DNA of 60,197 nt from Geobacter sp. (lineage in GTDB: Bacteria; Desulfobacterota; Desulfuromonadia; Geobacterales; Geobacteraceae): contig DAIEGL010000124.1 of assembly GCA_027356255.1 (NCBI GenBank), positions 1-60,197 on the forward strand, in the 5' to 3' direction. Position 1 is the first letter of the stretch. The number at the start of each line of letters is the position of its first letter. Under the pieces are notes generated by a model. It saw only the letters and a program-made list of their open reading frames with translations, was not told the origin of the DNA and made no database searches. This document shows positions 30,201 through 49,759 of this stretch, one piece after another. A program made the position numbers and the translations under genes.

Positions 30201-33200
30201 TCGCCCGCATACGTCCCGTTCGAACTTTGATCGAAGACCAACGCCGCATTATCTACGATGTCTCCCTGCAGGCTCGTGGTGATGCCCTTCAGGGTACCGC
30301 CGCTTACCGTCGTCCCGCCGCTGTACGTGTTAGCTCCCGAGAGTGTGACCGTGCCGCCGGTGCTCTTGGTTAAACCCACCGTGCCACCTAGAGCCGCGCT
30401 CACCGTCCCCGATTGAACGTCATAGTCGGTTGCAGAGATCAGAGCACCCTTCACCGTTGATGAATCGACTATCGATCCCGACACCAGGGACACGCCGTTT
30501 ACCGCATCTGTATGTCCGGCCAGATCAAGTGTCCCGCCGTTTACCGTGACGTTTGTTCCGCTCGGAAGCGCATTGTCTGCACCTGTTGCCAGCGTTCCGA
30601 CATTGACGTTTGTCCCGCCGCTGTACGTGTTCGCTCCAGAGAGGGTGACCGTGCCGCCGGTGCTCTTGGTTAACCCAACCGTGCCACCGAGAGCCGCGCT
30701 CACTGTCCCCGATTGGACGTCGTAGTCGGTTACGGAGGTCAGAACCCCGGTCCCTATCGAATCGACTATCGATCCCGTCATTAGCGAGACGCCGTTTACC
30801 GCATCCGCGTACCCCGCCAGATCCAATTTCCCGCCGTTTACCGTGACGTTTGTTCCGCTCGGAAGCGCATTGTCTATGCCTACTGCCAGCGTTCCGCCGT
30901 TGACGTTTGTCCCGCCGTTGTACGTGTTCGCTACTGATAGCGTGACCTTACCAGCACCTGACTTGGTCACGCTGCCGTTGCCGCTGATCACGCCTGCATA
31001 GGTGCCATCCGTGGCTTGGTCGAACACCAACGCAGCGTTGTCGACGATGTCTCCCTGCAGGCTCGTGGTGGTACCCGTCAGTGTCCCGCCGCTTACCATC
31101 GTACCGCGGCTGTAAGTGTTGACACCTGATAGCGTGACATTGCCGCCAGTGCTCTTGGTTAGGCCTACCGTGCCACCTAGAACCGCACTCACCGTCCCCG
31201 ATTGAACGTCGTAATCGGTTGCGGAAATCAGAGCCCCCTTCACCGTTGATGAATCGACTATCGATCCCGACACCAGCGATACGCCATGTACCGTATCCGT
31301 GTGCCCGGCCAGATCCAGTGTCCCGCCGTTTACCGTGACGTTTGTACCGCTCGGAAGCGCATTGTCTGCCCCTGTTGCCAGCGTTCCGACATTGATGTTT
31401 GTCCCGCCTCCGTACGTGTTCGCTCCCGAGAGGGTGACCGTGCCCCCGGTGCTCTTGGTTAAACCCACCGTGCCACCGAGAGCTGCGCTTACCGTCCCCG
31501 ATCGAACGTCATAGGCGGTTGCGGAGGTCAGAACCCCGGCCCCTACCGAATCGACTATCGATCCTGACACCAGCAACACGCCATGTACCGTATCGGTGTG
31601 CCCGGCCAGATCCAACGTGCCGCCGTTAACCGTGACGTTTGTGTTATTCGAAAGCACGTTATCCGCGCCCTCTGCCAGCGTCCCGTTGCTTATCGTCGTC
31701 GCGCCACTGTACGTATTCGCACCTGATAGTGTCACTATGCCGACACCCGTTTTTGTCAGGCTGCCGGCCCCCCTGATCACATCTGCATATGTGCCGTTCG
31801 TGGTTTGGTCGAAGACCAAAGCTGCGTTGTTTGTAATATTCCCCTGCAGGCTCGCGGTGGTACCCGTCAGCGTCCCGCCGCTTATCGTGGTCCCGCCGCT
31901 GTATGTGTTTGCTCCTGAAAACGTGACATTACCGCTGTTCGCCTTGGTAACGCTGCCGGTGCCACTGATCGCGCTTGCATATGTGCCGTTTGTCGTTTGG
32001 TCAAATACCAGCGCCGCGTTATTTGCGATATTCCCCCGCAGGCTTGATGTTGTGCCTGTCAGTGTCCCCGCATTTATCGTCGTCCCGCCGCTGTATGTAT
32101 TCGCCCCGGAGAGAACGAAGTTCCCTGCCCCCTCTTTAATAAGAGCCCCACTACCGGCGATAACCGCTCCTGCTGCCTGGCTACCGTCGATATTCGTGTC
32201 GATATGCAAGCCACCTGTCCCGACGGTTATTGTACCTGCCGTCTGATTGACACTTCCTGTGGATGCGGTAAGAACGAGACTGCTCACACCGGTCAGCGAT
32301 ATGCTGCTACTAATATCCACTCCTTTTGCATTAAGAGTCACGTTGCCAGACGCTGTCCGTGTGAGGCTGTTGGTGACGTAAATGTTGTTGTGAGCCGATA
32401 TTGTTAAATCGTTGCCGTTATGGAGGATGCCGGCAGCTCCAAATGTAATGTCGCCGATTCCTGAACCGCCGGAGATACCGACTGTCGTCACTGTTACATC
32501 ACCTGACTGAAGGCCCCCATCGATGGTAGACCACGAAATATGGGCGTCATTACCGCTCGGTTTGAAGGGAGAAGATGAGTTGACATTGTAGTCGCTTGCG
32601 TTGTCAATCGTCAGATCCCGAGGGTCGATGAGCCATTGCCCAACTTTGCCATTAGAGGCACCTACATTGGGTGCACTCTTGACTGAGAACGCACCATGGG
32701 ATGACGTCTCAACAAAACCACCATCCCCCCCTGCAATGCCACCTTGGGCGCTGATGGTGCCTTCCATCACCAGGGAATCATTTCCCCACACAGCCACCTG
32801 CCCGCCGTTGCCTTTTGTCAAGGCATCCGCAGTCACGCTGGCCCCCTGCTCCCCGTAGGTCATGGAGGCGTTCTGTTCCGGTCCTGCACCGTGGAAGTTC
32901 CCACCAATGAGGACCGTCCCCCCGCCGGCAACACCCGATGCGTCAACCCTCGCGCCGCTGAAAAGCCCCACCTTGTTACCGAGAAGCTTGACTGTGCCGC
33001 CGGTTTCGCCGCTGTTCTTCCCCGAGGCGTCCAGGGTACCGCTGTTGGCCACGATGCCGTTCTCGCCACCGTCCAGGTAGATGGAGCCGTTCTTCTCCAC
33101 GATGGAACGGGCCTGGATGATCCCTTCGTTGTTGACTACATTCTTCAAGAGGTCAGTGGCGACCCGGGCGGTCAGCACCACCTGGCCACCGTCGGCGGTG

Positions 33201-33994
33201 ATGGTGCCGCTGTTCTTGACCCCAAGGGCATCGGCTGCGGCCTTGTCGCTCACCACCAGGTCAATCAGGTCGCTGCCGGCGAAGTTGAGGGTGATTGCAT
33301 CCCCGGAGGCCAGATGGACCTTGCCCAGGTTGGCGATAATGGTCCCTTCGTTGCTGACAGTCGGGGCGGCCAGCACCACGTAGCCCCCGTCTGCCACCTG
33401 GATGTTTCCCTGGTTGATGATGGACGCCAGCGAACCGGGAGTGCCGCTGAGGACATTCTTGCCAGCCATGAAATCATCGGTGCCTATGTTCATGGTGGAG
33501 GCGAGGAAGCTGCCGGTCTGCACCTGGGCACCGGCACCTACCAAAAGCCCATTCGGGTTAATCACCCAAACCTGGCCGTTACTGGAGAGCTTGCCGTAGA
33601 TGAGGGAGGGGTCCTGACCGGTGACCCGGTTCAGAGCGATCGAGTCCCGTCCCGGCTGGACGAACTTTACCGTCTCATTGGCGCCAATGCCGAACCCGGT
33701 CCAGTTGATGGCCGTCCGGGTCGATGACTGGTTTATGGTCATGGAGGTGGCATTAGATTGGGAAATAGTGGCGCTGCCGCCGACCACGGTGCCGTTCTGC
33801 GGCAGGGCATGGGCAGGAGAGGCAGAGAGGGCAGAGGCAAGGGTCAGGGTGCCGGCCGCAGTAACAGCCAGTTTTAAAGCACCAGCGGCGCTACCGGCTA
33901 CGTTATCGCCATAGCCGAGCGCCAAATGCCCCTGCTGGGCTATCCGTCTGCTACGCTGCCGCCGGGCCTTAGTCTTTTTAGTCCTTTTTGCCAT
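24236..33994 (-). CDS. Giant TpsA filamentous-haemagglutinin-like adhesin (3252 residues)
   Basis: A secreted two-partner adhesin. The very basic N-terminus (KRTKKTKARRQRSRR) and hydrophobic segment end at a likely cleavage site after AHA63. The TPS (haemagglutinin activity) domain covers about 64-310 with INWTGFGIGANE, NRVTGQDPS and NPNGL (146-150). About 620-1810 are autotransporter-type repeats of about 65 residues (LSGANTYSGGTTINGGTLTG). About 2030-2930 are longer beta-helix repeats (GAVTVAGGATTLKDKNSLT type). No C-terminal beta-barrel is present, so secretion should use the TpsB at 39190-40908. The C-terminal 300 residues are non-repetitive, with no recognisable toxin domain. ATG at 33994 with GGGAGGG upstream. 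Confidence 0.92.
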   Translation of the reverse strand: MAKRTKKTKARRQRSRRIAQQGHLALGYGDNVAGSAAGALKLAVTAAGTLTLASALSASPAHALPQNGTVVGGSATISQSNATSMTINQSSTRTAINWTGFGIGANETVKFVQPGRDSIALNRVTGQDPSLIYGKLSSNGQVWVINPNGLLVGAGAQVQTGSFLASTMNIGTDDFMAGKNVLSGTPGSLASIINQGNIQVADGGYVVLAAPTVSNEGTIIANLGKVHLASGDAITLNFAGSDLIDLVVSDKAAADALGVKNSGTITADGGQVVLTARVATDLLKNVVNNEGIIQARSIVEKNGSIYLDGGENGIVANSGTLDASGKNSGETGGTVKLLGNKVGLFSGARVDASGVAGGGTVLIGGNFHGAGPEQNASMTYGEQGASVTADALTKGNGGQVAVWGNDSLVMEGTISAQGGIAGGDGGFVETSSHGAFSVKSAPNVGASNGKVGQWLIDPRDLTIDNASDYNVNSSSPFKPSGNDAHISWSTIDGGLQSGDVTVTTVGISGGSGIGDITFGAAGILHNGNDLTISAHNNIYVTNSLTRTASGNVTLNAKGVDISSSISLTGVSSLVLTASTGSVNQTAGTITVGTGGLHIDTNIDGSQAAGAVIAGSGALIKEGAGNFVLSGANTYSGGTTINAGTLTGTTSSLRGNIANNAALVFDQTTNGTYASAISGTGSVTKANSGNVTFSGANTYSGGTTISGGTLTGTTASLQGNITNNAALVFDQTTNGTYADVIRGAGSLTKTGVGIVTLSGANTYSGATTISNGTLAEGADNVLSNNTNVTVNGGTLDLAGHTDTVHGVLLVSGSIVDSVGAGVLTSATAYDVRSGTVSAALGGTVGLTKSTGGTVTLSGANTYGGGTNINVGTLATGADNALPSGTNVTVNGGTLDLAGHTDTVHGVSLVSGSIVDSSTVKGALISATDYDVQSGTVSAVLGGTVGLTKSTGGNVTLSGVNTYSRGTMVSGGTLTGTTTSLQGDIVDNAALVFDQATDGTYAGVISGNGSVTKSGAGKVTLSVANTYNGGTNVNGGTLAVGIDNALPSGTNVTVNGGKLDLAGYADAVNGVSLMTGSIVDSIGTGVLTSVTDYDVQSGTVSAALGGTVGLTKSTGGTVTLSGANTYSGGTNVNVGTLATGADNALPSGTNVTVNGGTLDLAGHTDAVNGVSLVSGSIVDSSTVKGALISATDYDVQSGTVSAALGGTVGLTKSTGGTVTLSGANTYSGGTTVSGGTLKGITTSLQGDIVDNAALVFDQSSNGTYAGEINGTGSVTKANSGNVTLSGTNTYSGGTTINGGTLTGTTSSLQGDIVDNAALVFDQATDGTFAGVISGTGSVTKLSSDNVTLSGANTYHGGTTISGGTLTGTTASLQGNIVDNAALVFDQTTDGIFAGVISGTGSVTKVNNGNVTLSGANTYSGGTTVNGGALTGTTASLQGSIVDNASLVFDQSSDGTYAGVISGTGSVTKVNSGNVTLSGANTYSGGTIVNGGTLTGTSTSLQGNIVDNASLVFDQSADGTFAGVISGTGSMTKLSSGNVTLSGANTYSGGTNVNGGTLTGTTTSLQGNIVDNAALVFDQTTDGTYAGTISGTGSMTKANSGNVTLSGANTYSGGTHANGGTLTGTTASLQGNIVDNATLVFDQSSGGTYAGVISGTGSVTKLNSGNVTLSGANTYSGGTTVSGGTLTGTTTSLQGDIVDNAELVFDQSANGTYAGEIRGTGSVTKLHSGNVTLSGANTYSGGTTISGGTLTGTTQSLQGNIVDNAALVFDQSADGTYVGVISGTGSVKKTNAANLTLAGANTYSGGTIIADGTLTAANSNALGSITGGVAVMNGATLLVDNVSLAAGLITLNGSGVNGGGALQSANNTTVSSDILLALDSRIGINNGNLTLSGNIDGEKNLTISGAPTTTLNISGAIGSGTQLSGISATSGTLTVSSIRTTGDVDLAATAGNLNVGVVDGNNVSMTGTTGIILSNDVTADGTLGLTTTNAAVVQTGGAISAGATTVTAGTGTVTLAQANNDFTTLNIVSSGETQITDKDALTVALNTTGTTVLTVGTTLDVSGSDTADLTVNAGGAVSQDGGVLAVGGTTTINAAGQAVILNKAGNDFSGKVTVNGAATQIADKNALTVALNTTGDTVLTAGSTLDISGTATADLTANAGGTVSQEGGVLAVGDTTTINAAGQAVTLNKAGNDFSGKVTVNGAATQITDKNGLAVALNTTETTVLTGTTVDVSGSDTASLTVNTTGAVSQTGGALKVGGTMAIDAAGQTVDLDNAANDFGGAVTVAGGATTLKDKNSLNVHLTTGVSDLAAGGDLTVDGASAGLTTHSAGLTFGSGTTTVTGDLTATATGAVGQTGVLTVTGASTINAGSGAVTLDNAGNDFVGAVTVASGTTTLRDANSLTAHLTTGATDLTAGGDLTVDGTSGNLTTHSAGLTFGATTVNGNLAATATGAVAQTGALSVTGAGTINSGSNTVTLDNAGNDFVGAVTVAGGATTLKDKNSLTSHLATGATDLTAGGDLAVAGASATLTTHSAGLTFGATTVNGDLAATATGAVSQTGALKVAGASTVNAGSNAVTLDNADNDFIGALTVTGGATKIVDANSLTGHLNTTDATALTAGSNLTVDGASGNLATNATNVTFGSGATTVNGDLAVTSAGAVGQSGALTVSGNSSIDAGSNAVTLDNAGNDFGGAVTVVAGTTKIADKNSLTAHLTTGATELTAGGDLIVDGNSASLTTDSQGLTFGRGATKVNGDLVATASGAVGQSGVLTVTGQSTINAGSNAVTLDNGANDFIGAVTVTGGSTKIVDANGLTAHLATGDTRLTVGGDLTVDGTSGSLTTASKELTFGATAVTGDLVANAGGAVGQSGALTVSGASHINAGGSAVTLDNGDNDFGGAVSVAGGATSIRDRNDLALGSLAIASNSPLRVVAAGKLTLPATAIDTGSADLFLHSGGTLSTAADLTTTTGNMTLEGVKGITVAHNLKSESGKIALNAEQGRIDQTGGIIATNGLLTTTSASGTALLAQNEVKTFNAVNGGSGNIEFADMTDLYINEVKNTGDVTLSTKGNMVISPDTIIGDTVTLTAKTIEGGSIYANTVNLNAETIGMKSKPRISARQINVHATGSELAASAKLESVDMSNWQKVQAYAPGVVMYNSWPNIQSDAPGVVLYKGMIAGGGLQEAYQESVLLGGKTINMAVNSKVMDSMLMLTSFEEFFSVAPNEAISMDDQEKPKPVQEFLPGVLPDGNPCLLMEEKQVF
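25190..27900 (-). repeat. Coding tandem repeats of about 258-310 bp in tpsA (C-terminal array)
   Basis: Within tpsA, units begin at regular spacing. The GCGGTCAGGCTGTT-type sites near 25569, 25879, 26188, 26492, 26796 and 27100 are 304-310 bp apart. Two neighbouring units near 27367 and 27626 are about 258 bp apart and almost identical over long stretches. Encoded units alternate strands such as TVTGASTINAGSNAVTLDN and GNDFVGAVTV. High local identity suggests recent duplication or gene conversion. Confidence 0.85.
28560..32130 (-). repeat. Coding tandem repeats of about 195 bp in tpsA (autotransporter-type array)
   Basis: About sixteen or more units of about 65 residues, each with SGTGSVTK, NVTLSGANTYSGGT and LTGTTTSLQGNIVDNAALVFDQ. 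The DNA spacing is about 195 bp, seen for example near 28590, 28783 and 28978. Interspersed longer units carry VNGVSLVSGSIVDS. This repeat class (PATR) is known from autotransporter and haemagglutinin passengers, where it forms beta-helix rungs. Confidence 0.88.
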
Positions 33995-34036
33995 CTTTCC
34001 CTCCCTGCCGATGTGCCTGATATAAAACAGACCAGA

Positions 34037-35140
34037 TCAACGTAACCTGGTGATGATGTTATTGTCCTGAGACACGTAAAGACTGGAGCCATCGGTAGTT
34101 ATGCCGCCTGTAGACCAGAGAGTTCCGAGACTGCCACTGACCGAAAGCGTTGAAACCTCCCCAGTGGCTATGACAATCTTGCGGATTGTTGGCACTATTG
34201 CTGTCTTTTTGCGATCGGTCACGTAGAGGTTGATTCCATCTGTGGTGATACCACTATCCTCATAAAAACTGGCCGCGGCACCGATGCCATCAGCGTCTCC
34301 CCATACACCGGCGGTGCCGGCCACGGTGGTCACGGCACCTGTGGCGATCACAACCTTGCGGATAGTCGCGCCGTCGGTAACAAAAAGATTGGTTCCATCT
34401 GTGACTATACAGAGAGGCATATCCAGACGCGCAGCGGTCCCGATACCATCCGTGGAGCCTGCGATGCCATGTGCACCGGCCAAAGTGGTGACTTCACCAG
34501 TGGCTATGACGATCTTGCGAATCGTGCTGTCATTATCGTCTGCCACAAAAAGATTGATTCCGTCCGTCGTAATGCCATAAGGGTCCATGAAGCGGGCGGC
34601 CGCACCGACACCATCAGCAGAGCCTTTGCTCCCGGCAGTGCCGGCCAGGGTGGTTACAGCGCCAGTAGCGATCACTACTTTACGGATCGTACTATTGGCC
34701 GAGTCAGCCACATAAAGATTCGTTCCGTCCGTAGTGATGCCGTAAAATTCAGAAAACCTCGCTGCAGCACCGGTACCGTCGGCCGAACCGGAGATACCGG
34801 CCGAGCCGGCAAGCGTCGTTACGGCTCCTGTGGCAATGACAACCTTGCGAATCGTAAAGCTATTTGTGTCTAAGATATAAAGGTTTGTCCCGTCCGTAGT
34901 CATAGCCCAAGGGGCATTAAATCTGGCTGCTGCCCCAAGGCCATCAGACGAACCTGCGAGACCAGCAGTGCCTGCTATTGTGGTTAAAGTACCAGTCAGA
35001 ACGAGTTCCTTCCCCTGTATTGCCCCCCCTTTCAGGCTAGGGCCAGCGCTATTGCCTGTGCCACTGCCACCGCCACAACCGGCAGCCAACGCTATGGCCA
35101 TCAAAACCAGAATCCGGCTAAGAATGTTTCGAGTTTTCAT
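34037..35140 (-). CDS. NHL-repeat lipoprotein
   Basis: The 367-residue precursor has a lipoprotein signal (MKTRNILSRILVLMAIALAAGC, lipobox Cys22, then a Gly-rich spacer). It is followed by about six NHL-type blades of about 55-57 residues, each with the pattern FxxPxGITTDGTNLYVADxxNSTIRKVVIATGAVTTLAG (varying). NHL propellers bind proteins or ligands. Start ATG at 35140 with GGAGG upstream. It lies 42 bp before tpsA and 14 bp after the transglycosylase-like gene, so the three are probably co-transcribed. A decayed paralogue lies at 37606-38040. Confidence 0.88.
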   Translation of the reverse strand: MKTRNILSRILVLMAIALAAGCGGGSGTGNSAGPSLKGGAIQGKELVLTGTLTTIAGTAGLAGSSDGLGAAARFNAPWAMTTDGTNLYILDTNSFTIRKVVIATGAVTTLAGSAGISGSADGTGAAARFSEFYGITTDGTNLYVADSANSTIRKVVIATGAVTTLAGTAGSKGSADGVGAAARFMDPYGITTDGINLFVADDNDSTIRKIVIATGEVTTLAGAHGIAGSTDGIGTAARLDMPLCIVTDGTNLFVTDGATIRKVVIATGAVTTVAGTAGVWGDADGIGAAASFYEDSGITTDGINLYVTDRKKTAIVPTIRKIVIATGEVSTLSVSGSLGTLWSTGGITTDGSSLYVSQDNNIITRLR

Positions 35141-35153
35141 CCATATCCTCCGT

Positions 35154-35957
35154 TCAGTTGTCCCAATCAATACTGTTACGCCAGTAATGACGTGGTGCGA
35201 TGTTCCAAACCTTTGTATTGTAGTAGTCCTGCTGGTACCGTGTGCTCACTTCCGCAGCATTAGGATGCAGTGTCTTTCCTATTTCTGGCTCAATATATTT
35301 CTTGTTCGTTCGAGGGTTATTGGTTGCTTTATGCTGAATGGCTTTCTTTTTTCGGGTGGGATCGATGTGATCCCCTGTAAAGGTACCGTTCAACACTTTC
35401 TCGATATTATCAGCAATAGGAATTACTCTTGTTTTTGAGAGGTTCAAACCGCCATGATCTTTGGCATCGCCATCTAATCTTCCGGGCCCATCATGGTGGT
35501 ATTGGTAGATCTTTTCTTCTTCCTCTGTGCCTGAGTGCCCACGCTTATTTGCGATCTTTTTGTTCCTAAGAAAATACCTAACAAGCGCATCGACGTTGCT
35601 GCCTATGTCAAATCTATTTGTGTCATTCAAGCCGAAATCTCGTCCAGTACCGTCGAGAAATTGTCCTATACCTGCCGCTGTCTGGTTAGATGCTGCATCT
35701 GGATTAAAGCCAGATTCTACATAAGCCATCGCCAAGACATCTGCTATCTGACGCGTGTTCAACTGATATGTTTTCGCCGTGCTGATTATCGTATCAATGA
35801 CTTTTTTCTGAACATCCGGTTTTGCATCGCCCCAAATACGACTATTCCCAGCAGGCCTACCCGGAGTTTTAACAATAGGTTCAGTGTAATGTGACTTTGC
35901 CGTAACCTTCTTATATCCTGAGCCTTTATTGGCCGTCATCGCACTGTAATTAATCAC
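35154..35957 (-). CDS. Lysozyme/transglycosylase-like protein without signal peptide, candidate wall-degrading effector
   Basis: 267 residues. The central part (about 65-150) resembles the SLT/lysozyme-like fold: VLAMAYVESGFNPDA with E81 as likely catalytic acid, TAAGIGQFLDGTGRDFGL, and IYQYHHDG. This would cleave peptidoglycan glycan strands. The N- and C-terminal parts are not recognised. No signal peptide or membrane helix is seen. The start is GTG at 35957 (AGGG upstream), 9 bp after a gene for an exported Cys-rich protein. Cytosolic muramidase plus exported partner is the layout of T6SS effector/immunity pairs, but this is inference. Remains of a second copy are at 38075-38113. Confidence 0.7.
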   Translation of the reverse strand: MINYSAMTANKGSGYKKVTAKSHYTEPIVKTPGRPAGNSRIWGDAKPDVQKKVIDTIISTAKTYQLNTRQIADVLAMAYVESGFNPDAASNQTAAGIGQFLDGTGRDFGLNDTNRFDIGSNVDALVRYFLRNKKIANKRGHSGTEEEEKIYQYHHDGPGRLDGDAKDHGGLNLSKTRVIPIADNIEKVLNGTFTGDHIDPTRKKKAIQHKATNNPRTNKKYIEPEIGKTLHPNAAEVSTRYQQDYYNTKVWNIAPRHYWRNSIDWDN

Positions 35958-35966
35958 AGTTTCGCC

Positions 35967-36485
35967 CTAATACTTCCTTCTGAGTGGAATATCTATGAAA
36001 GATGACCTCGGCCAAGTCTTAGGCAATCCCAGTTTTGTATATATTTTTGAAAAACGTTCGTAAGCGTCTTTAGCATTACGGTCACTGGTCAGCTTCTTAC
36101 CATTCAAATCAAATAGTTCTGACCATTCACATTCCTCACAATTTCCTCCATTATTATGATTTATCAAAATATAGTATTGTGATTTACCCTTTACACAAGC
36201 AAACGCCGTAGCAAGAGAATAATCTCCGGGTTTGCCTAAAGTATTTATTGTATTTGGGTTGCTTATGCCAATGGTTCTAAACTCAAATTGCTGTTTTGTA
36301 CAAGATGGCAGCACATCTGAGTCAGCATAACATTCAGTGATAACTGAAACATTTGTATTTCCACATACCGTTTTTGCACTCTTTGAATACAATTCTTCAG
36401 CACCGGCAATACCTGCTAAGGAAAATAGCAGAACGATAAATATCGTTGAACTCACACATCTATAATCCTGTTGCAGTCCTATCAT
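35967..36485 (-). CDS. Exported Cys-containing protein, candidate immunity/inhibitor
   Basis: 172 residues with a signal peptide (about 1-28, hydrophobic IFIVLLFSLAGIAGA, cleavage after AGA) and a mature part containing several Cys (TVCGN, TECYADS, LPSCTK, FACVKG, NCEECEW), suggesting disulphides in the periplasm. No family is recognised. The codon use and base composition are AT-richer than in flanking tpsA sequence. The ATG at 36485 has AAGGTGA upstream; an ATG at 36527 would add residues before the signal. It directly precedes the muramidase-like gene and follows the truncated TpsA. Confidence 0.62.
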   Translation of the reverse strand: MIGLQQDYRCVSSTIFIVLLFSLAGIAGAEELYSKSAKTVCGNTNVSVITECYADSDVLPSCTKQQFEFRTIGISNPNTINTLGKPGDYSLATAFACVKGKSQYYILINHNNGGNCEECEWSELFDLNGKKLTSDRNAKDAYERFSKIYTKLGLPKTWPRSSFIDIPLRRKY

Positions 36486-36528
36486 CACTTCACCTTCAAA
36501 TCTATTGATGATCCAGTGATAATTCATG

Positions 36529-37497
36529 TCAAGCAGCCAGCTGCCAGCTCACCGAGGTACCGTTTTCGCCGCCATCCAGGAAGATGGCGCCGTTTTTCTC
36601 CACGATGGAACGGGCCTGGATGATCCCTTCGTTGTTGACCACATTCTTCAAAAGGTCGGTGGCGACACGGGCGGTAAGCACCACCTGCCCGCCATCGGCA
36701 GTGATGGTGCCTCTGTTCTTGACCCCAAGGGCATCGGCGGCGGCCTTGTCGCTCACCACTAGATCGATCAGGTCGCTGCCGGCAAAGTTGAGGGTGATCG
36801 CATCCCCGGAGGCCAGATGGACCTTGCCCAGGTTAGCGACAATGCTCCCTTCGTTACTGACAGTCGGGGCGGCCAGCACCACATAGCCGCCGTCAGCCGC
36901 CTGGATGTTCCCCTTGTTGATGATGGACGCCAGCGAACCAGGTGTACCGCTCAGGACGCCCTTACCAGCCATGAAATCATCGGTGCCGATATTCATGGTA
37001 GAAGCCAGAAAGCTGCCGGTCTGCACCTGAGCACCGGCTCCCACCAAAAGCCCGTTCGGGTTTATCACCCAGACTTGGCCGTTACTGGAGAGCTTTCCGT
37101 AAATAAAGGAGGGGTCCTGACCGGTGACCCGGTTGAGGGCAATAGAGTTGCTCCCCGGCTGGATGTATCTTACCGATTCGTTGGCACCGATGCTGTACCC
37201 GGTCCAGTTGATGGCCGCCCGGTTGGAGGACTGGTTGATGGTCATGGTGGCGGCGTTGGTTTGCGAGATGGTGGCGTTGCCGCCGACCACGGTGCCGTCC
37301 TGCGGCAGGGCATGGGCAGGAGAAGCGGAGAGGGCAGAGGCAAGGGTCAGGGTGCCGGCCGCTGCACCAGCCAGTTTCACTGCATCAGCGACGTTACCGG
37401 CTATGTTATCGCCATAACAAAGCACCAGATGCCGCTGTTGGGCTATCCTCTTGCTGCGCTGCTTTTGCGCTTTGGTCCGTTTACTTTTCTTTGCCAT
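36529..37497 (-). pseudogene. Truncated TpsA copy (signal peptide and TPS domain only)
   Basis: A 322-residue frame nearly identical to residues 1-313 of the full TpsA: basic start MAKKSKRTKAQKQRSKR, cleavage after AHA63, and NPNGL at 146-150. After GGENG it diverges abruptly to TSVSWQLAA and a stop, exactly where the full copy continues into its repeats. A strong AGGAGGGG precedes the ATG at 37497, so it may still be expressed and exported through TpsB as a lone TPS domain. Most likely the remnant of a second tpsA after deletion or replacement. Confidence 0.85.
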
Positions 37498-37605
37498 GCT
37501 CCCCTCCTGTTTCTATCCACCTGCAATTCAATAAACTTTCACAAGTACAACTTGCTGACTAGCTACATACCCTAACCATCACGGCCGGCTGGAGCATTTT
37601 GCGGC

Positions 37606-38040
37606 CTACAACAGGTTCTTCACGACCGCCACACCATTACACATTGTGATGTAGAGCAAGTTGCCGCTGACCGCCACTCCTATCGGATTACTCAGCACCC
37701 CAGGCAATGCCCCTGGGACAAAGCCCTCTTGCCCCGCACCCCCGACTACAGTCGTCACCACCCCGGCGGGTGTTATCTTGCGGATGGTGTGGTTTTCGTT
37801 ATCGGTCACATAAACATTGCCCGCACTGTCGGTGGCAACGCCCTCAGGGTAATCAAAACGCGCTGCGACCCCAGTGCCGTCAACATTGCCCGAGCCACCC
37901 ATATCCCCGGCAAACAGCGCGAGGGACGTGCCCGGTGTCGAATTCCCAACACCGCCACCTCCGCCACTTCCACTTCAACCGGCAACCACCAACATGGCCA
38001 CCAGGATCAGCATCCGGCTTAGCACGTTCCAAATTTTCAT
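37606..38040 (-). pseudogene. Decayed NHL lipoprotein copy with a stop at the lipobox Cys codon
   Basis: From the ATG at 38040 (perfect AGGAGG upstream) the frame reads MKIWNVLSRMLILVAMLVVAG and then TGA (37975-37977), exactly at codon 22, where the intact paralogue at 34037-35140 has its lipobox Cys. The same frame then continues SGSGGGGG and into NHL-like sequence (FDYPEGVATDSAGNVYVTDNENHTIRKITPAG) to 37606. Only about two blades remain, against six in the paralogue. So it is both nonsense-mutated and truncated. Confidence 0.85.
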
Positions 38041-38074
38041 CTATTTCCTCCTGAGAGTTGAGCATTTTTGCTTA

Positions 38075-38113
38075 TCAGTCGTTCCAATCGATTCTGTTCC
38101 GCCAGTAAAGGTA
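38075..38113 (-). pseudogene. 3' scrap of a second lysozyme-like gene
   Basis: Read on the minus strand this encodes YLYWRNRIDWND and a stop. The intact gene at 35154-35957 ends HYWRNSIDWDN and a stop, and the flanking distance to the NHL start is similar (about 35 bp here, 14 bp there). It marks the 3' end of a lost paralogue in the same gene order. Confidence 0.75.
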
Positions 38114-38122
38114 TGAAGACCT

Positions 38123-38215
38123 TCAGTTATTACGAGCTTGGAATCCCACGATCTTCAGGGTCGAGGCCAGGAACCTGCCGGTCTGCACCTGGACAACGGC
38201 GCGAACGTGTGGATT
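38123..38215 (-). pseudogene. Scrap of a TpsA TPS domain
   Basis: The minus strand encodes QNPHVRAVVQVQTGRFLAS followed by TLKIVGF, matching INPNGLLVGAGAQVQTGSFL and ASTMNIG of TpsA residues 145-171. It ends at a stop about ten bases from the lysozyme-like scrap at 38075-38113. About 1.5 kb seems to have been lost between them, compared with the intact module. Confidence 0.75.
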
Positions 38216-38476
38216 TTGGTCAAAAGGAGTGGTCAAAGGGGAAGGAAACGAGTCTAATGCAAGAGGGCTAACCTGAGTAACGAGGGCTTCTGAATGGTCC
38301 TGATGGAGGGGCCAACAGTGCGACTCTATCGAGGTAAAACCAGCATGCTTTTGCCACCACAATTTGCAGCCATTTCAATTGTTCATAGTCATCCAAAAAT
38401 CTGTCGGTTACAGATCGATAACAAAAATATTAATCTGTTGCCGCCAGTGAAAGCGGTTTAACAATTAAAATACAAC

Positions 38477-38522
38477 ACAACTGTAAAAAATTTTTACAGT
38501 TGTAAAAATTTTTTACAGTTGT
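38477..38522. promoter_or_regulatory. 27-bp perfect palindrome plus an extra half-site
   Basis: ACAACTGTAAAAA (38477-38489) is mirrored by TTTTTACAGTTGT (38491-38503) around one central A. A further TTTTTTACAGTTGT follows at 38509-38522. The arrangement of two inverted half-sites and one direct half-site at about 19-bp spacing looks like a cooperative repressor/activator site, or a hairpin with T-tracts acting as a terminator in both directions. Confidence 0.5.
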
Positions 38523-38696
38523 ATGTTCTCAATATGACAAAGTTTTTACAAAGTTAAAACATTGTTAAAAAAGAAACAAGACAATTTGAATTATTTTTAG
38601 TTAATTATTTTATCTGTATATGTTTAGACTATGGCTATAAGTTAATTAAAATAGAAGCGCGGTGAATTCGATGGTGGGTAAGGTTTAGATTTGTTT

Positions 38697-38749
38697 CCGT
38701 ACACCCGATTTCGAGTCAGGCACCACATCGTCCATTCGAACACCTCTCC
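38697..38749 (-). pseudogene. 5' fragment of a tRNA-Ser(CGA) gene
   Basis: The minus strand from 38749 begins GGAGAGGTGTTCGAATGGAC and continues through GGTGCCTGACTCGAAATCGG to GTGTACGG. This is the 5' acceptor strand, D-arm and anticodon arm of bacterial tRNA-Ser with anticodon CGA (CCTGA pairs with TCGGG around CTCGAAA). After that the match fades: the T-loop is ATCGAAT and nothing pairs with GGAGAGG. It is not a working tRNA but a scar, possibly of integration or rearrangement at a tRNA-Ser locus. Confidence 0.7.
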
Positions 38750-38769
38750 GGAATTTGCGCCAATCCCCC

Positions 38770-39150
38770 TCAGCTCTCACCTTCCGCCCCCGGGGCACAC
38801 ATTTCATTGATCATCCGCACCTTGGCCATGTATAGCTTGGCCAGGTTCATGTTCACCACCGCCACTTCCTGGCTGATCTCGCCGCTGACCTTTTCGCTCA
38901 TTTGCAGGGCCGCCAGAAGACAGGACTCGGCCTCATCAAATTCCCGGCGCAGGGTGTGAATGATGCCGAGGTTGTTCAGTGCGGTGACCGTGTGTTTGTG
39001 CCGCCGGCCGAACGCCTTCCGGCTCAGGCCGAACAGCTTCTCGGCGGCGGCAAGAGCCTGATCCATGCTGTTGTCGCGGGTCAACTGCACCACTTCCCGA
39101 TTCAGCGCTTCCCACTCCTGGTCGTCAATCTTCTTGCGTCGAAACCACAT
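38770..39150 (-). CDS. Small TPR-repeat protein
   Basis: 126 residues from ATG 39150 (MWFRRKKIDDQEWEAL). An upstream ATG at 39186 would start 3 bp after the tpsB stop but has no ribosome binding site. It contains two to three tetratricopeptide repeats of the kinesin-light-chain type: ALAAAEKLFGLSRKAFGRRHKHTV, TALNNLGIIHTLRREFDEAE, and SQEVAVVNMNLAKLY. No signal peptide, so probably cytosolic. It follows tpsB closely, which suggests one transcript and a chaperone or scaffold role for the TpsA system, but no specific function can be assigned. Confidence 0.72.
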   Translation of the reverse strand: MWFRRKKIDDQEWEALNREVVQLTRDNSMDQALAAAEKLFGLSRKAFGRRHKHTVTALNNLGIIHTLRREFDEAESCLLAALQMSEKVSGEISQEVAVVNMNLAKLYMAKVRMINEMCAPGAEGES

Positions 39151-39189
39151 ATCACCGGCCCTTGTGAACCCCGTAATTGCCTGCATCGC

Positions 39190-40908
39190 CTAAAACGAAA
39201 GAGTCGCCACGAAAGTCGTCCGGCCGTTGCGGGCCTCGTACCCGCCATTCTTGGAGGGGACCGCCCAATCGAGCTTGAAGGAGAAGAACTGCCCGCCATA
39301 CAGCCGCACGCCAGCACCCAGGCCGGTCAGGTAATCCGCGTCCCTTTCTCCGGCAGTCGCATCGGTGACGAAGGCGCCGCCATGGTCTACAAACATGGCA
39401 AACTTGATGGTATCACCCACCTTCTGCTTGAAGATGGTCGCTTCCGGGAATATCGGCGACACGGCAAGCTCGGCGGAGAGGTAGTAGCCGCTGTCGCCGC
39501 CGACCGCTGCCGGGGTGTACCCGCGGACGGTCCCGTCGCCGCCGATCAGGAACTGTTCCGGCACCAGCAGCCGGTCGGGGGAATACTGTGCCCCGCCCCT
39601 GAGGATGATATGGTTGTAACCGGGGAGTTTCTGGATGCGCATGGCGTCCAGGTTAAACTTGTGAAAAGAGTCGGAGGCTCCCGCCCGGCTGGGCGAGGGG
39701 ACATCGTTCTCCTCGGTGCCGCCGAAGAGGCTTCCCAGGCCGGCTGCATAGCTGAAGCCCAGGAAGTTCCGCCCCAGGAACCTGTCGGTCTTGGTGTAGT
39801 AGGCGTTGAGGATGATCTTGCGAATGGCGTCCCGGCTCCGCGGCCCATCCAGCAGGTCCTCCTTGGTATCGATGAATTCGGTGCCGAGCCGGATATTCAG
39901 TATCTCGTCTCTCTTCCTGATGAACGGCCGGGATGCATAGAAGCCGAAGACATTGCCCCGCCCCTGCAAGGCAAGGGGGGCCAGGATGCCGCCGGCGGTG
40001 TAGATGCTGTTGGTGTAGTACCCTCCCACCTGCGTGCCGCATCCGCCGATGGGGAGCAGGTATTCAACCCGGCCGAAGGAGAGCCGGTCAAAGTCGATCC
40101 GATCGACACCGGTTACCCCGCGCAACAGAAGCGCGTCACCGCTGGTGAGCAGGTTGCCGGCGTTCAGGTTTACGCTGACCCGTTTTTTGCTGGTCGTTTC
40201 CGAGCCGAAGTTGTCGTAGGAAATGCTCCCCGAAATGGGGAACCGGTCGGCGACCGCGGCGATCAGATCGGTTGTGCCGGCTTCCTTCCCCGCCTTGAGC
40301 GATGCCTTGACCGCCAGAGAGGGGTAGTCGTTCAGGATGAGCAACTCTTTTTCGAGGGTTTCCTCGTTTAACGAGCGGTCTCTTCTGACCTCGTTCAGAT
40401 GGCGTTTGATGAAGGCCGTGCTGTAGCTCTTGTTGCCGGTGACCAGTATCTCTCCCACCCGCCCCTCGACCACCTGGATCGTCACCACGCCGTCGATGAT
40501 CCCCTGAGAAGGGACATAGGCATTGGCGATCAGGTATCCCGCTTCCCGATATTTCGCCGTTACGAGTTCGGCGACGTTCCAGATCTCTTCCAGGGACAGC
40601 TCCTTGCCCACGGCCATTGCCGTGGCGGAATCCAATGTGGCCGCATCGAGCAGCGTGTTCCCCTGGATGTCGAACTTCCTGACCAACACCTTCTTTGCCC
40701 CTTCCGCTTCCACTGGAGCCGGCTTCTTCACCTCCTGCTCGATCACCGGCTGTTCGCGCTTTTTGATTTGCGCCGGTATCTGGTCTTTGTCCTGGAGTAT
40801 CTGATACATCTGACCGGGAGCCGTCCCTTCTGCGTGAACGGTGCCCGCCAGTGCAATTACCCCCAGGGACAAGGCAAGAACCGCGCTGCGCTTCGTAATC
40901 CTCATCAT
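39190..40908 (-). CDS. TpsB outer-membrane transporter (ShlB/FhaC family)
   Basis: The 572-residue protein has a signal peptide (ending TVHA), a Lys/Glu-rich linker, and POTRA domains (VRKFDIQGNTLLDAATL, YREAGYLIANAYVPSQ, VVEGRVGEILVTGN) over about 70-230. The rest is a 16-strand-type barrel with the loop-6 signature VRGY in GGDGTVRGYTP, and a terminal Phe (TFVATLSF). It secretes TpsA proteins through the outer membrane after recognising their TPS domain; the partners here are at 24236-33994 and the truncated copy. Start ATGATG at 40908 with GGAGGGG upstream. Confidence 0.93.
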   Translation of the reverse strand: MMRITKRSAVLALSLGVIALAGTVHAEGTAPGQMYQILQDKDQIPAQIKKREQPVIEQEVKKPAPVEAEGAKKVLVRKFDIQGNTLLDAATLDSATAMAVGKELSLEEIWNVAELVTAKYREAGYLIANAYVPSQGIIDGVVTIQVVEGRVGEILVTGNKSYSTAFIKRHLNEVRRDRSLNEETLEKELLILNDYPSLAVKASLKAGKEAGTTDLIAAVADRFPISGSISYDNFGSETTSKKRVSVNLNAGNLLTSGDALLLRGVTGVDRIDFDRLSFGRVEYLLPIGGCGTQVGGYYTNSIYTAGGILAPLALQGRGNVFGFYASRPFIRKRDEILNIRLGTEFIDTKEDLLDGPRSRDAIRKIILNAYYTKTDRFLGRNFLGFSYAAGLGSLFGGTEENDVPSPSRAGASDSFHKFNLDAMRIQKLPGYNHIILRGGAQYSPDRLLVPEQFLIGGDGTVRGYTPAAVGGDSGYYLSAELAVSPIFPEATIFKQKVGDTIKFAMFVDHGGAFVTDATAGERDADYLTGLGAGVRLYGGQFFSFKLDWAVPSKNGGYEARNGRTTFVATLSF

Positions 40909-41493
40909 GGAAAAAACCCCTCCTGCATAATAAATTGCGATTACCCCGAAAATTGGGGCAATACGTCTGTGATTTTTCGAATCTGCTCCCAGGACGCTAC
41001 AAGACCGGTCCATCGAGTATTCAAGACGGTCAAGGGCGGAGCTTTGCAACGGAAGTTCCGGGTCCCACGGTCAGCAAATCTGGTCGCACATGAATTTTCT
41101 GGAGATCTTCAATGGATGGAAACTAGCTGCGGAGGTGTCCCTGAGGTGTGGCAGATGCGATCGCCTGCTCCAACATTGTTGATTCTTCTGTAATCGTAAC
41201 GACGTTCAAAATGCACGTACCGCTTTTACGCTTTAATTCATTTACACTAACAAAAGCGTAACATAGCTGAAATCACGCGTAGTTATGGCATTTTTCAGTT
41301 CTAATGTCAATAATTATATGGTTATTTACTAATACAGTCCTGTTAATTTGAGCGTTCCAAGTTGAATTGATTGACTTCTGAATGCGGATGGCTTGCCGAC
41401 AGCCTGAGCGGCTTGGCATTTCGGAGCGGCAATAAATGAGGAAATGTCTGGGGAATCGGGTTTGGTGGGGTGCCCTGCAAAAGATCGACGGAC
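40909..41493. other. Upstream region of tpsB
   Basis: About 585 bp without a supported gene between tpsB and the cbcL terminator. The leader has a small hairpin CCCCGAAAATTGGGG at 40944-40958. Farther up is an inverted repeat at 41226-41261 in an AT-rich stretch (41220-41360), the most likely promoter/operator area for tpsB. No riboswitch fold was recognised. Confidence 0.5.
41226..41261. promoter_or_regulatory. Inverted repeat upstream of tpsB, possible operator
   Basis: TTACGCTTT (41226-41234) and AAAGCGTAA (41253-41261) form a perfect 9-bp inverted repeat with an 18-bp AT-rich spacer, about 320 bp upstream of the tpsB start. The half-sites lie about 2.5 helical turns apart, suitable for a dimeric regulator. 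No known consensus was recognised. Confidence 0.4.
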
Positions 41494-41529
41494 AAAAAAA
41501 GGGGTTGCCGTTGCGGCAACCCCTTTTTT
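41494..41529 (-). terminator. Rho-independent terminator after cbcL (bidirectional form)
   Basis: A7, stem GGGGTTGCC, loop GTTGC, stem GGCAACCCC, T6. It lies 22 bp past the cbcL stop. The A-tract gives a U-tract on the minus-strand transcript. Confidence 0.93.
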
Positions 41530-41550
41530 GCTTATATCCCTGCTATCTGC

Positions 41551-43407
41551 CTAATGGGCCCCCCCAGTCAGGAAGGCGAAGAGCATCAGGGCAACAAGGG
41601 TCAGGCCGGTGATGACGGCGATGAAACCGAACGTCTTGACGATGAAGTCATAGGCAATGCCGCTGGTGTGCTTGGCCCTGAACTGCTCGGTTATGCCTTG
41701 CTCCTCGTAACGTTTCCACTGGTCGCCACGCTCTTCCACGAACTCATGCTTGGACATCTGCCCGTTGAAGATGACGAAGTCCATGGGGAACTTCTCCGGC
41801 CGGCCGTGGGTATTGAAGAAATGGACGGTGAAGATGAAGCCGGTGGCAAGCAGGGCCTCGTCGGAGTGGACGATGGTCGCCACGTTGAACGCCCAGCCCG
41901 GGAGGAAGTAGCCGAAGAACTCGGGGAACCAGAGCATCAGGCCTGATCCGCCGATGGCAAACATACCCCAGAAGACGGCGATGAAGTCGAATTTCTCCCA
42001 GTATGTCCAGCGCTCGAAGGTCGGTTTCGGCCCCCGGAACAGGAACCAGCGGACCATGCCGGTGACGTCTTTGATATCCCTGAAGTTCGGCATCAGCGAG
42101 TCGGGACCGAACATCCTCTGCAGGAAGTTCCCCTTGATATCCTTCCTGATGAAGAGGAAATGGATACTCAGGAAAATAGCACCGGAGAAGTAGACAAAGG
42201 TGATTCCGGCGCAGATTCTGTGGATGAAGCCGGCGTTGGCGGAGCCGCCGTACAGCTGCATGAACAGCTTGGCCCAGACCTGGTCGCTGAATTTGAGCGG
42301 CAGACCGGTCAGAGAGAGTCCGAGGAAGCTGATGATGACCAGCAGGTGCAGGAAGATGTGCCGTCTCTTGAAGCGGCGGTATACCTTGTGGCCATCGGGC
42401 ACGACATGCTCGATGTGACCTTCCATGATTGCGGCGGCCTTTTCACGATTCTCCACGAAGCCGCGGAACATCCAGAGCAGCGAGTGGAGCCAGAAGACCG
42501 CAAAGGTGCCGACCAGCAGGCCGGTCATGGCAAGGAAGGTATAGTAGAGTATCGGGAATTTCTCCCTGTCGGTATGCTCGCCGTGGGCGTAGAACTTCGT
42601 AAAGAGCGGCGTTGCATTTTTATGGCATTTGGCGCAGGTGTGCACCAGGTTCTGCGGGTTGACGCTTGATTTCGGGTCCTTGGCAGGAAGGACCTCATGG
42701 GCGGTGTGGCAGTCGGCACAGCCCGCCACCTTCTCCGGAAAACCGAGACGGTAGTTCTTGCCGTGATAGCTCTCCATGTAGGTCTTTACCGCAACGTTGA
42801 AGACGCCGTTGCGCTGCATCATCTTCTCGTCGCTGTGGCACTTCAGACATACCTTCGTGTGGAATTCACGGTTGGCATGGGATTTCGGATCGCCCAGCGG
42901 CTGGATATCGTGCAGGTTATGGCAGTCGTTGCAGGCAGCCGAATCCTGGTTACCGGCCGCAACGGCCTTGCCGTGGATGGAGTTGCGGTAGACCGCTTGC
43001 TTGTCGTGGCACTGGATACACTTGGCGACCACAAGCCTCTTGTCTTTTTTCCAGTAGGTATGCGTATGGATGTCGGTGTGACAGTCGGCACATCTTACGT
43101 CGTTCTGCACATGGACGCTGTTGTAATATTCAGCGTTTTCCTTTTTGTGGCAACGTTCGCAGTGAACCTTACCGACCTTGACCTCACCTTTCATATGCTT
43201 GGTTAGGTCCGTAATCTCCACGTGACAACTGGTACAGGCATTTTTGCCATGGACTGACGCCGCAAAAGCGGCAGCGGAAATCTTGTTGCCGTGGCAGCCT
43301 AGGCATGTGGCCGGGTCAATGGCCATCCCCTGCTCTGCAGCCGCCGGCCTGACCACGGCCAGGAACAGCAACAGGGCTGGGAGCATTCTGGTCAACATCT
43401 GAAACAT
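41551..43407 (-). CDS. cbcL: CbcL-type nine-heme cytochrome c / b-type quinol oxidoreductase
   Basis: 618 residues: a signal peptide (ending PAAA), a periplasmic multiheme domain with nine CxxCH motifs (CLGCH, CTSCH, CERCH, CADCH, CIQCH, CNDCH, CLKCH, CADCH, CAKCH), then six membrane helices of the HydB/cytochrome b type with paired His (HIFLHLL, HRICAGI, HSDEALL, FTVHFF). This is the architecture of Geobacter sulfurreducens CbcL, which passes electrons from menaquinol to periplasmic cytochromes at low redox potential. As I recall, cbcL is also near glmU/glmS there. ATG 43407 with AGGAGG at 7 bp. Monocistronic, with its own terminator. Confidence 0.92.
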   Translation of the reverse strand: MFQMLTRMLPALLLFLAVVRPAAAEQGMAIDPATCLGCHGNKISAAAFAASVHGKNACTSCHVEITDLTKHMKGEVKVGKVHCERCHKKENAEYYNSVHVQNDVRCADCHTDIHTHTYWKKDKRLVVAKCIQCHDKQAVYRNSIHGKAVAAGNQDSAACNDCHNLHDIQPLGDPKSHANREFHTKVCLKCHSDEKMMQRNGVFNVAVKTYMESYHGKNYRLGFPEKVAGCADCHTAHEVLPAKDPKSSVNPQNLVHTCAKCHKNATPLFTKFYAHGEHTDREKFPILYYTFLAMTGLLVGTFAVFWLHSLLWMFRGFVENREKAAAIMEGHIEHVVPDGHKVYRRFKRRHIFLHLLVIISFLGLSLTGLPLKFSDQVWAKLFMQLYGGSANAGFIHRICAGITFVYFSGAIFLSIHFLFIRKDIKGNFLQRMFGPDSLMPNFRDIKDVTGMVRWFLFRGPKPTFERWTYWEKFDFIAVFWGMFAIGGSGLMLWFPEFFGYFLPGWAFNVATIVHSDEALLATGFIFTVHFFNTHGRPEKFPMDFVIFNGQMSKHEFVEERGDQWKRYEEQGITEQFRAKHTSGIAYDFIVKTFGFIAVITGLTLVALMLFAFLTGGAH

Positions 43408-43727
43408 GAAAACAACCTCCTGATCTAGAGATAAAATAAGCGTTTGCAAAACGCAGTATTATAATTTATAATTTCCCAACATCCCACCTTAAACAAATCA
43501 CGTTAAATCTTAAGTTGTCACGTCAAATCAATTAGTTAAAACTCCTGCCAAATATAAAACATTATTTAATTCTTGAACAAAATTAAATGAATAGGCGCAA
43601 ATAGGTGAAATAGTAATATGCGGGAGGATAAAAAGCAATAAAAATGTATATAAAATGTATACACTAAGCCTTATTCATCGGGAGAACCACCAGGCAAGAT
43701 TTTCAGGGCGGGATGGATGAACTCTTC
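43408..43727. other. AT-rich upstream region of cbcL
   Basis: 320 bp with no gene. It is much more AT-rich than the surroundings and should hold the cbcL promoter. A sigma70-like TTGTTC-18-TATATT pair can be read on the minus strand within about 43555-43590. A TGGCAG resembling a -24 element is also seen but lacks the -12 GC. Neither is convincing. Confidence 0.45.
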
Positions 43728-45605
43728 TCAGGGCTCGGAAGCGGAAACGACAATGCCTTCGGCAACGGCAAATTCCAGGAATGACGCCGCTTCGTCTGCG
43801 GGGAGGCCGATGCCGGCGGCGATCTCCCTGGGGGAGCGCTTGGAATCCAGACCTCCCAGCAACCGGTAATACGGTTCAATGAGCGATTCTGTGAAAACCT
43901 CGTTTCCCCGCGGATAGATGACGGCGCACGAACCGTCGGCAACGAAGCAGTCGGCAAATTCCCGCAGGTCGATGTCGCCCGACTCCAGGATATCGTATAT
44001 CTCGTAATTGAACCGCGCCATCCTGGCGGACGACGATACCGAGAGCGGCTCATCGAGCAGGTTCATCCGCGCCAGATCCCGGTCGGTGGGGAGTTCCGGC
44101 GCCGGCGAAAGAAGGGCCGCCGCATAATAGTAATGATAATCAACCAGGTCGAGAACAACGGCCAAAAGCTTGCCTTTTTTCCTTTCAGCGAAAAGGTCGC
44201 GCAGGAAATCCCGTTGCATTTGCCAGATCCGTGCATCGGAAAACCGCTCTTCGACGACCTCCCCCCCCTCCTTCGCTGCCAGCCACAGCCTGAAACCGTC
44301 GAGAAAGGCGGAGGGACGCATCTTCAGCGGGGCCAGAACCGCGTTGAACCAGGCGACCGCCTTTCCCCGGCTGTAAAAGATATCGCAGGCAGCGGCAAGC
44401 CCCCTGGCAGCGCGCATCTCCCCTTCTGAAAAGGTCTCCGAACTGATCACGGTATAAGGCGGCCCGGGCAGGTATCCGAGACCGAGCTCGTCCGCCCTGG
44501 CGGAAAGCCTCGTGCCGGGGAGCACCGCCAGAGGGAAGATGTCCAGATGGTTTGGGTAAAGCCCCAGGGCAAAATCGAGACTGGCGGAAAAACCCTCGCC
44601 CGTGTCCCCGGGAAGGCCGTAGATCAGGTCGAAGCCGAAAACGGCCCCCGCTTCGTTCAGCAGGGCGATTTTGTCCAGGAAATCCGCCGGGCTGAAGATC
44701 CTTCCCACCTTCCGCTGGATCTGCGGGTCGGCGCTTTGCAGTCCTATCTGGAGAGAACAGGTTATCTGCGCGAAGAGGCCCGCCAGGTCCCGGTCGATGA
44801 ATTCGCTGCGGATCTCGAAATGAAAATGGATGTGGGGCGCGTTCCTTTTAATCAGCCGCAAGATCTCCTTCGCCCGCTTCATGTCCTGGTTGAACGTGGA
44901 ATCGAGAACGAAGACCTGCGTAACACCCCGCCGGGCAAACAACCGCAGCTCCGCCCCGATCCGCTCCAGGGAAAAGCGGCGCACCCCCGCCCCCCCCTTA
45001 TTGTCGAAGCAGAAATCACAGGCAAAATCGCACCCACGCGAAAGTTGCCAGAGAACGCCGCACCGGTCGCCCAGCGGCAATATGCCGCCGAGATAGGGTG
45101 AAGGGAGCGTGTCCAACCGCTCCACCGGTTTGCGCGGGACATGCTCGAATGCACCGTCCCTCCTCGAAGTGACCCCCATGATGCCGGAGACGGAATCCCC
45201 GGCGCACAGCCGCCCCGCCACCTCGCGAAACGTCTCCTCCCCCTCACCCGTGATGATGAAGTCCAGGCAGGAGCCGTCGAGGACTCCCGCCGCATCCGCT
45301 GACGCCTCGGGCCCGCCGGCGAATATGGTCAGCTGCGGTTTGCGGCGGCGTAGAATTGCCGCCGTCTCCAGGCAGAGCGCCCTGTTCCAGACGTAGACGG
45401 AGAAACCGACCGCATCGGGATTCTCGGCGAGGATGCCGGCCGCGCACTCTTCCGCCGGCTGGACGAGGAAAAAATCGGCAAGCGAAACCGACACCCTGTT
45501 TGAAAGGGCTTGATCGGCGCAGAGATACGCCTTGAGAAAGGCGTTGGCTAAAGGAACGGCTTGCGGGGACGGGGAGGTATGTATGGCAGCGAGGACTACG
45601 CGCAA
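43728..45605 (-). CDS. B12-binding radical SAM protein
   Basis: 625 residues. The N-terminal Rossmann-like cobalamin-binding region (about 1-140) has GFSVYVWN and IFAGGPEAS but no DxHxxG motif. The radical SAM core has the cluster motif CDFACDFC (SRGCDFACDFCFDNKGG) and later GFDLIYGLPGD. The C-terminal about 220 residues resemble the DUF4080 tail of such proteins. The substrate is unknown; members of this group are often methyl- or ring-modifying enzymes. Its stop lies 320 bp from cbcL, and it is 39 bp downstream of the MXAN_5187-type gene, probably co-transcribed. ATG 45605. Confidence 0.85.
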   Translation of the reverse strand: MRVVLAAIHTSPSPQAVPLANAFLKAYLCADQALSNRVSVSLADFFLVQPAEECAAGILAENPDAVGFSVYVWNRALCLETAAILRRRKPQLTIFAGGPEASADAAGVLDGSCLDFIITGEGEETFREVAGRLCAGDSVSGIMGVTSRRDGAFEHVPRKPVERLDTLPSPYLGGILPLGDRCGVLWQLSRGCDFACDFCFDNKGGAGVRRFSLERIGAELRLFARRGVTQVFVLDSTFNQDMKRAKEILRLIKRNAPHIHFHFEIRSEFIDRDLAGLFAQITCSLQIGLQSADPQIQRKVGRIFSPADFLDKIALLNEAGAVFGFDLIYGLPGDTGEGFSASLDFALGLYPNHLDIFPLAVLPGTRLSARADELGLGYLPGPPYTVISSETFSEGEMRAARGLAAACDIFYSRGKAVAWFNAVLAPLKMRPSAFLDGFRLWLAAKEGGEVVEERFSDARIWQMQRDFLRDLFAERKKGKLLAVVLDLVDYHYYYAAALLSPAPELPTDRDLARMNLLDEPLSVSSSARMARFNYEIYDILESGDIDLREFADCFVADGSCAVIYPRGNEVFTESLIEPYYRLLGGLDSKRSPREIAAGIGLPADEAASFLEFAVAEGIVVSASEP

Positions 45606-45644
45606 AAGATGCTCCGGGAGAAGGGATAAATGGGGTTTGACGGC

Positions 45645-46208: not shown

Positions 46209-46342
46209 GCGCCCTCCGCAAAAACTATAACCGGAACGTATTGATAAGTAAAGGTAAAAGCTGGTGGACGCGGGCCCGGATCAATCGGATTGCCTTACGC
46301 TCCTCCGCAACCGTCTGCCGTTTCCGAACCACGGTTAATTGC

Positions 46343-46371
46343 TTGACGCGGCGGCAAGTTATTGTTAAAAA
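46343..46371 (+). promoter_or_regulatory. Sigma70-like promoter of glmU-glmS
   Basis: TTGACG at 46343-46348, a 17-bp spacer, and TAAAAA at 46366-46371, about 40 bp before the glmU start. Confidence 0.55.
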
Positions 46372-49747: not shown

Positions 49748-49759
49748 AGAATGGTCGTC

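Follow-up and report, generated by a model that had tools for sequence, protein, structure and literature searches.

Introduction

Partial tRNA pseudogenes and remnants of tRNA genes occur in bacterial chromosomes. The 5′ piece of a tRNA-Ser(CGA) gene described here resembles them in being an incomplete copy of a tRNA gene of the same genome that has mutated and is no longer tRNA-like, and nothing essential sets it apart from them; it does keep its leader, and it lies at a rearrangement of a two-partner-secretion locus. Judged from its sequence, it would thus belong to this known class of bacterial tRNA pseudogene fragments. A second point of comparison is provided by the tDNA islands of Islander, where 159 of 3919 islands carry a 5′ fragment and 3760 a 3′ fragment, and the target subsites named are anticodon-loop, T-loop, and junction (PMC4383910). 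Like the displaced 5′ fragments described there, ours covers the 5′ end of a tRNA gene, but, unlike those, no island is seen, the contig has no integrase, the homology runs past the anticodon loop, and the cognate gene appears undisturbed (PMC4383910). A scattered 5′ tRNA-Thr fragment is also reported from Caldiarchaeum, for which the authors propose an element plus recombination (PMC3293823). While that fragment likewise lies far from its intact gene, the case as given there is archaeal and linked in one clone to a recombinase gene (PMC3293823), a link that is lacking here.

The stretch of DNA that we analyzed (the window; 60,197 nt) is contig C185 of genome G000, a 3.4-Mb Geobacter sp. assembly of 301 contigs with 84.6% completeness and 3.9% contamination.

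Identity and extent of the fragment

Alignment (blastn and pairwise) with the genome's own intact tRNA-Ser(CGA) gene (contig C251, 10255–10342) places the fragment at 38693–38755 on the minus strand, with 89% identity over 63 alignment columns and an E-value of about 1e-16 within the own genome. Its composition is a leader, AATTCC (38755–38750), followed by tRNA nt 1–55 (38749–38693), which comprise the acceptor 5′ strand, the D-arm, the anticodon arm, and the 5′ strand and loop of the variable arm, the homology ending just past the loop of the variable-arm hairpin GTAC-GGCAAC-GTAC. Relative to the intact gene, the alignment contains substitutions and a 2-nt insertion in the D-loop. In a comparison of the window with the tRNAs of its own genome (30 loci, from 33 places listed, and the intact Ser-CGA gene), Ser-CGA was the sole strong match (E 4e-15), with the next best at 0.003. 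The exact 27-nt pattern of the fragment had no match in either genome_contigs or viral_contigs, and no second genome of the species was found. An earlier note on this DNA had proposed the tRNA-Ser(CGA) 5′ match, to be given up if alignment showed no significant match, and the own-genome alignment bears it out. The span given there, 38697–38749 with the strand unstated, corresponds to tRNA nt 1–51 without the leader and is shorter than the full minus-strand extent; otherwise the description in that note is a good one.

The same note had the T-arm and the 3′ acceptor strand as missing, and this holds. ARAGORN found no tRNA in the window, a Rfam search of 37000–40500 at E<=1 gave no tRNA match, and the next 90 nt after the fragment give no better alignment with the 3′ portion of the tRNA than shuffled sequences do (p 0.44). 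Since TCGAAT is the only match there, a residual 3′ half beyond the fragment was rejected. Of the properties by which a tRNA pseudogene fragment is recognized, a significant match with a tRNA gene of the same genome and loss of the tRNA structure are found here.

The intact gene and the source of the copy

Directly upstream of the intact gene on C251 is tadA, with 82% identity to the copy in a relative, G004, whose tRNA-Ser(CGA) is followed by an island. Downstream, the C251 sequence matches the G004 sequence beyond that island (score 132, reached by 0 of 500 shuffles), versus a score of 15 (reached by 341 of 500 shuffles) for the G004 flank between the tRNA and the island, and scores of 13, 24, and 35 for the flanks in G001, G002, and G003. 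Because tadA lies upstream and the downstream flank is as found beyond the G004 island, the C251 site looks undisturbed, with what appear to be native neighbors on both sides.

As for the leader of the fragment, all six adjacent bases agree with those of the own gene, while among the 39 distinct 12-nt leaders compared the next best agree at 4 and 2 bases. The match is only 6 nt long, though, and would by a rough estimate arise by chance at about 2e-4. That the leader matches the own gene alone suggests that the copy was most likely derived, leader included, from genomic DNA of the own lineage, rather than from a mature tRNA or the gene of a relative.

The two-partner-secretion locus

Along the minus strand, tpsB is followed in turn by a TPR gene, 14 nt, the fragment, ~350 nt of AT-rich DNA, a TpsA remnant, a decayed NHL gene, and a truncated tpsA. 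Here, tpsB (39190–41049, minus) encodes a ShlB/FhaC-type transporter with Pfam ShlB and POTRA_2 matches, and the TPR gene (38770–39186, minus; TPR_12, E 7e-15), which ends in a stop codon 14 nt ahead of the fragment, has a counterpart between tpsB and tpsA in G135. On the far side, the TpsA exoprotein gene remnant (38150–38215, minus) is small (tblastn 60% over 25 aa, E 4e-4; DNA 86% identical to 33486–33535), the NHL-repeat lipoprotein gene (37618–38061, minus; tblastn to the product of 34037–35170) is decayed and has an in-frame stop, and the second tpsA copy (36529–37497, minus) is truncated to 322 aa (TPS domain, E 2e-31; 81% identity with the N-terminal 166 aa of the long TpsA). The long tpsA itself (24236–33994, minus; 3252 aa), identified from the ORF listing and by similarity, is displaced about 5 kb from tpsB-TPR. 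Thus, of the border between tpsB and a decayed module at which the fragment had been placed, the seam with the decayed module stands, though the TPR gene separates the fragment from tpsB.

Another family of the order has relatives of tpsB at E<=1e-60 in 11 of its genomes (with our own, 12 of the 141 order genomes), and the other four genomes of the genus have none. Synteny with the genus, over the 17 kb compared (33000–50000), runs from ~49671 to ~41484 and then stops. G135 has the arrangement tpsB-TPR-tpsA, its TPR and tpsA genes being about 50 nt apart; in the window, the TPR gene is followed instead by the fragment and the remnants, which suggests that the fragment sits where tpsA became detached. 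We read it, from sequence comparison, as a probable lineage-specific partial duplication at a rearrangement breakpoint 14 nt past the TPR gene.

Other features of the locus were also observed. Between tpsB-TPR and the long tpsA, the stretch 33486–38215 holds repeated partial copies of the TpsA exoprotein and NHL lipoprotein genes, which may be a cassette-like reservoir or tandem duplications that have decayed. The gene immediately downstream of the 3252-aa tpsA (22159–24198) encodes a protein with caspase (Peptidase_C14) and Lcl_C domains, and a minus-strand gene run at 1683–12304 appears, from ORF starts judged by eye, to resemble a type VI secretion cluster.

The AT-rich stretch and its tandem dyad

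The unusual AT-rich DNA noted earlier next to the fragment is indeed present at 38340–38692 (minus), with an AT content of 0.62–0.82 per 60-nt bin, and probably once served as a promoter region. Searches of phage and plasmid collections returned nothing beyond short, weak matches to it (best E 0.1–0.5). Rfam matches of its palindrome (mir-255, manA-II, and MIR1878) were below gathering scores and were rejected, A/T dyads being read as their cause.

An exact motif search located a tandem operator-like dyad, TGTAAAN5TTTACA-NN-TGTAAAN5TTTACA, at 38482–38517. With a spacer of one or two nucleotides (N1-2), the exact motif occurs at 31 places in 10 of the 141 order genomes, including all five of the genus, and the reversed control pattern at none in the same 141. 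We viewed the neighboring ORFs at all 31 places, with Pfam run on 17 of these ORFs; sites besides that in the window include L090, L098, L130, L089, L091, L092, L094, L133, L144, L145, and L152. Several of the dyads lie 30–131 nt before a start codon, among them those of cas3 and of surface-protein genes. The gene that follows is cas3 in three genomes (L090, L098, and L130) and one for an NfeD-domain protein in three (identified by Pfam at L092 and L145 and from sequence alone at L135/L152), and genes for a beta-helix protein and an RHS-repeat protein are also found after the dyad. In G004, a LexA-type repressor gene and a second RHS gene are 150 nt and 215 nt, respectively, from dyad sites. 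Among the remaining places are some with no clear gene after them or with a neighbor without a family. From this pattern, the dyad looks like a candidate operator of a regulator. The literature covered, including the accessible part of PMC545781, yielded no such tandem dyad, only BirA sites with a longer spacer, which is not proof that the motif is unpublished.

Displaced 5′ copies in the order

A search with a 66-nt query revealed further tRNA-Ser(CGA) 5′ copies in seven of the 141 order genomes (G009, G045, G075, G077, G088, G113, and G123). Read base by base, all seven end at nt 38–41, within or just past the anticodon loop, and five of them (not G045 and G123) share contig and strand with the intact gene, which lies 5 to 34 kb downstream. 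In G009, the outside neighbor of the 5′ copy is a tadA-type deaminase gene. A tyrosine-type integrase of 354–357 aa follows the copy in G009, G045, G077, and G113 (Pfam run on two of the four), starting 415–428 nt from it in the three genomes measured and about 425 nt in G045, where the variant 5′ end was missed by the exact string and the distance was taken from coordinates; none was seen after the copy in G088, G075, or the short G123 contig. By eye, the island arms carry GTGCAC repeats. The 5′ copies of these relatives are 5′-half islands, the known minority class.

Ordinary 3′ fragments of tRNA-Ser(CGA) are also present, with three verified (G004, G083, and G071) out of 13 candidate rows. 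Four weak rows (G068:C7, G054:C10, G038:C4, and G015:C21) resembled partial fragments but were not counted, being not tRNA-like and taken by eye as protein-coding chance matches; the first three are nearly one sequence and the last is a different one. Two contigs that end within the tRNA gene (G048:C320 and G060:C240) were left out of the fragment count.

Within the integrase family, the four closest members (L066:17326-18827, L063:1958-3442, L067:1823-3305, and L069:3023-4511) adjoin a displaced tRNA-Ser(CGA) 5′ half. For more distant members (L119, L123, L124, L126, L127, and L128), the start lies ~280–430 nt beyond an intact tRNA for Leu, Ser(TGA), SeC, or Phe, and no tRNA was seen at the remaining places (L120, L121, L122, and L125). 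On this evidence, a change in the tRNA half carried by the element seems to have occurred within the family. Separately, at L002:925-1569 a tadA frame without a stop before tRNA-Ser(CGA) continues through the leader and the tRNA 5′ half, unlike in G004, where the tadA stop precedes the tRNA.

Alternative explanations

The earlier note had the fragment as a mark of integration or recombination. A recombination breakpoint is supported by the gene order, which is altered relative to that of G135, while site-specific integration is not, and the latter now appears unlikely. One form of it would have the fragment as a relic attL of an old island that displaced the tRNA-Ser(CGA) 5′ half, the integrase and the rest having since been lost. 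Such islands do exist in the order, with 5′ copies in seven genomes, three of which have no integrase seen after the copy, and the fragment, starting at nt 1 with its leader, includes the end of the tRNA gene, as in Islander islands. A missing island partner could also be explained by the fragmented, 84.6%-complete assembly. Nonetheless, the window copy ends at nt 55, past the nt 38–41 end point of all seven island copies, its outside flank is TPR/tpsB and not tadA, and neither an anticodon-loop end nor an alignable arm, the marks of the 5′-half islands of the order, is found. The AT-rich zone was rejected as an attachment arm, with no similarity to the stretches after the seven other 5′ copies and no GTGCAC-repeat arm. 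The Islander arrangement has the fragment upstream of the cognate gene, in the same orientation and within 2–200 kb, with the integrase between them. The fragment (C185) and the gene (C251) are on separate contigs, so that their relative placement counts neither way, and this separation also qualifies the lack of an integrase between them. The native flanks at C251 speak against a regenerated tRNA gene bordering an island. The integrase and direct repeat that the earlier note had proposed looking for did not turn up: contig C185 has no integrase, all five PF00589 places of the genome being elsewhere, no relative of the order's island integrase occurs in G000 at E<=1e-50, 37000–39200 holds no integrase remnant (best E 0.06), and the only partner repeat in the own genome is the intact gene with its native flanks. 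We therefore regard an attL relic as improbable.

Small inverted repeats are the sort of core site used by integrases. As the homology ends just past the loop of one, the variable-arm hairpin, the fragment might instead be an att relic, and the only visible footprint, of a class of integrases whose crossover falls within that hairpin in class II (long-arm) tRNA genes, with an element carrying nt 1–55. This would be a new integration subsite, absent from the anticodon-loop, T-loop, and junction subsites that Islander names (PMC4383910). With none of the seven other 5′ fragments ending at nt 55, no integrase on the contig, and an end point that is a single case and possibly chance, we think it very unlikely.

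Equally hard to credit is an artefact of assembly or binning, by which unrelated contigs would meet at the fragment. The fragmentation (301 contigs) and 3.9% contamination would allow it, but the copy, being mutated and having an own-lineage leader, is no misjoined read from the intact gene, and the operator motif typical of the genus is present beyond the fragment. Lastly, that the fragment works as a gene, for a tRNA half or a small RNA, is least plausible of all: although the anticodon arm is still pairable with one G-U (alignment by eye) and the remaining sequence is 89% kept, there is no stable or tRNA-like fold (z 0.35 against shuffles, versus -2.18 for the intact gene), and 38200–38900 has no promoter-like site in the sense direction and two, within chance, on the other strand.

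Proposed origin and implications

The explanation we favor, and consider probable, is that the fragment is a decaying partial duplicate, or pseudogene fragment, of nt -6 to 55 of the own tRNA-Ser(CGA), captured when a horizontally acquired tpsB-TPR-tpsA module broke and rearranged. During this breakage, the partial copy would have been inserted as filler DNA or by illegitimate duplication; a template switch, junction filler from end-joining, or a larger duplication later trimmed may each have made the patch. The inserted copy would then have decayed neutrally, presumably with no present function, and would now lie where the TPR gene meets the AT-rich, promoter-like stretch. Most likely it is not a functional gene but an ordinary scar in the genome that does no harm.

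As such, the scar would place one breakpoint in the two-partner-secretion locus, and cautions that tRNA fragments do not always mark the end of an island. The present one can be told from the true 5′-half islands of the order by three simple checks: where the homology ends, what flanks the intact gene, and whether an integrase is nearby. Those islands and the tandem dyad motif are better leads than the fragment itself.
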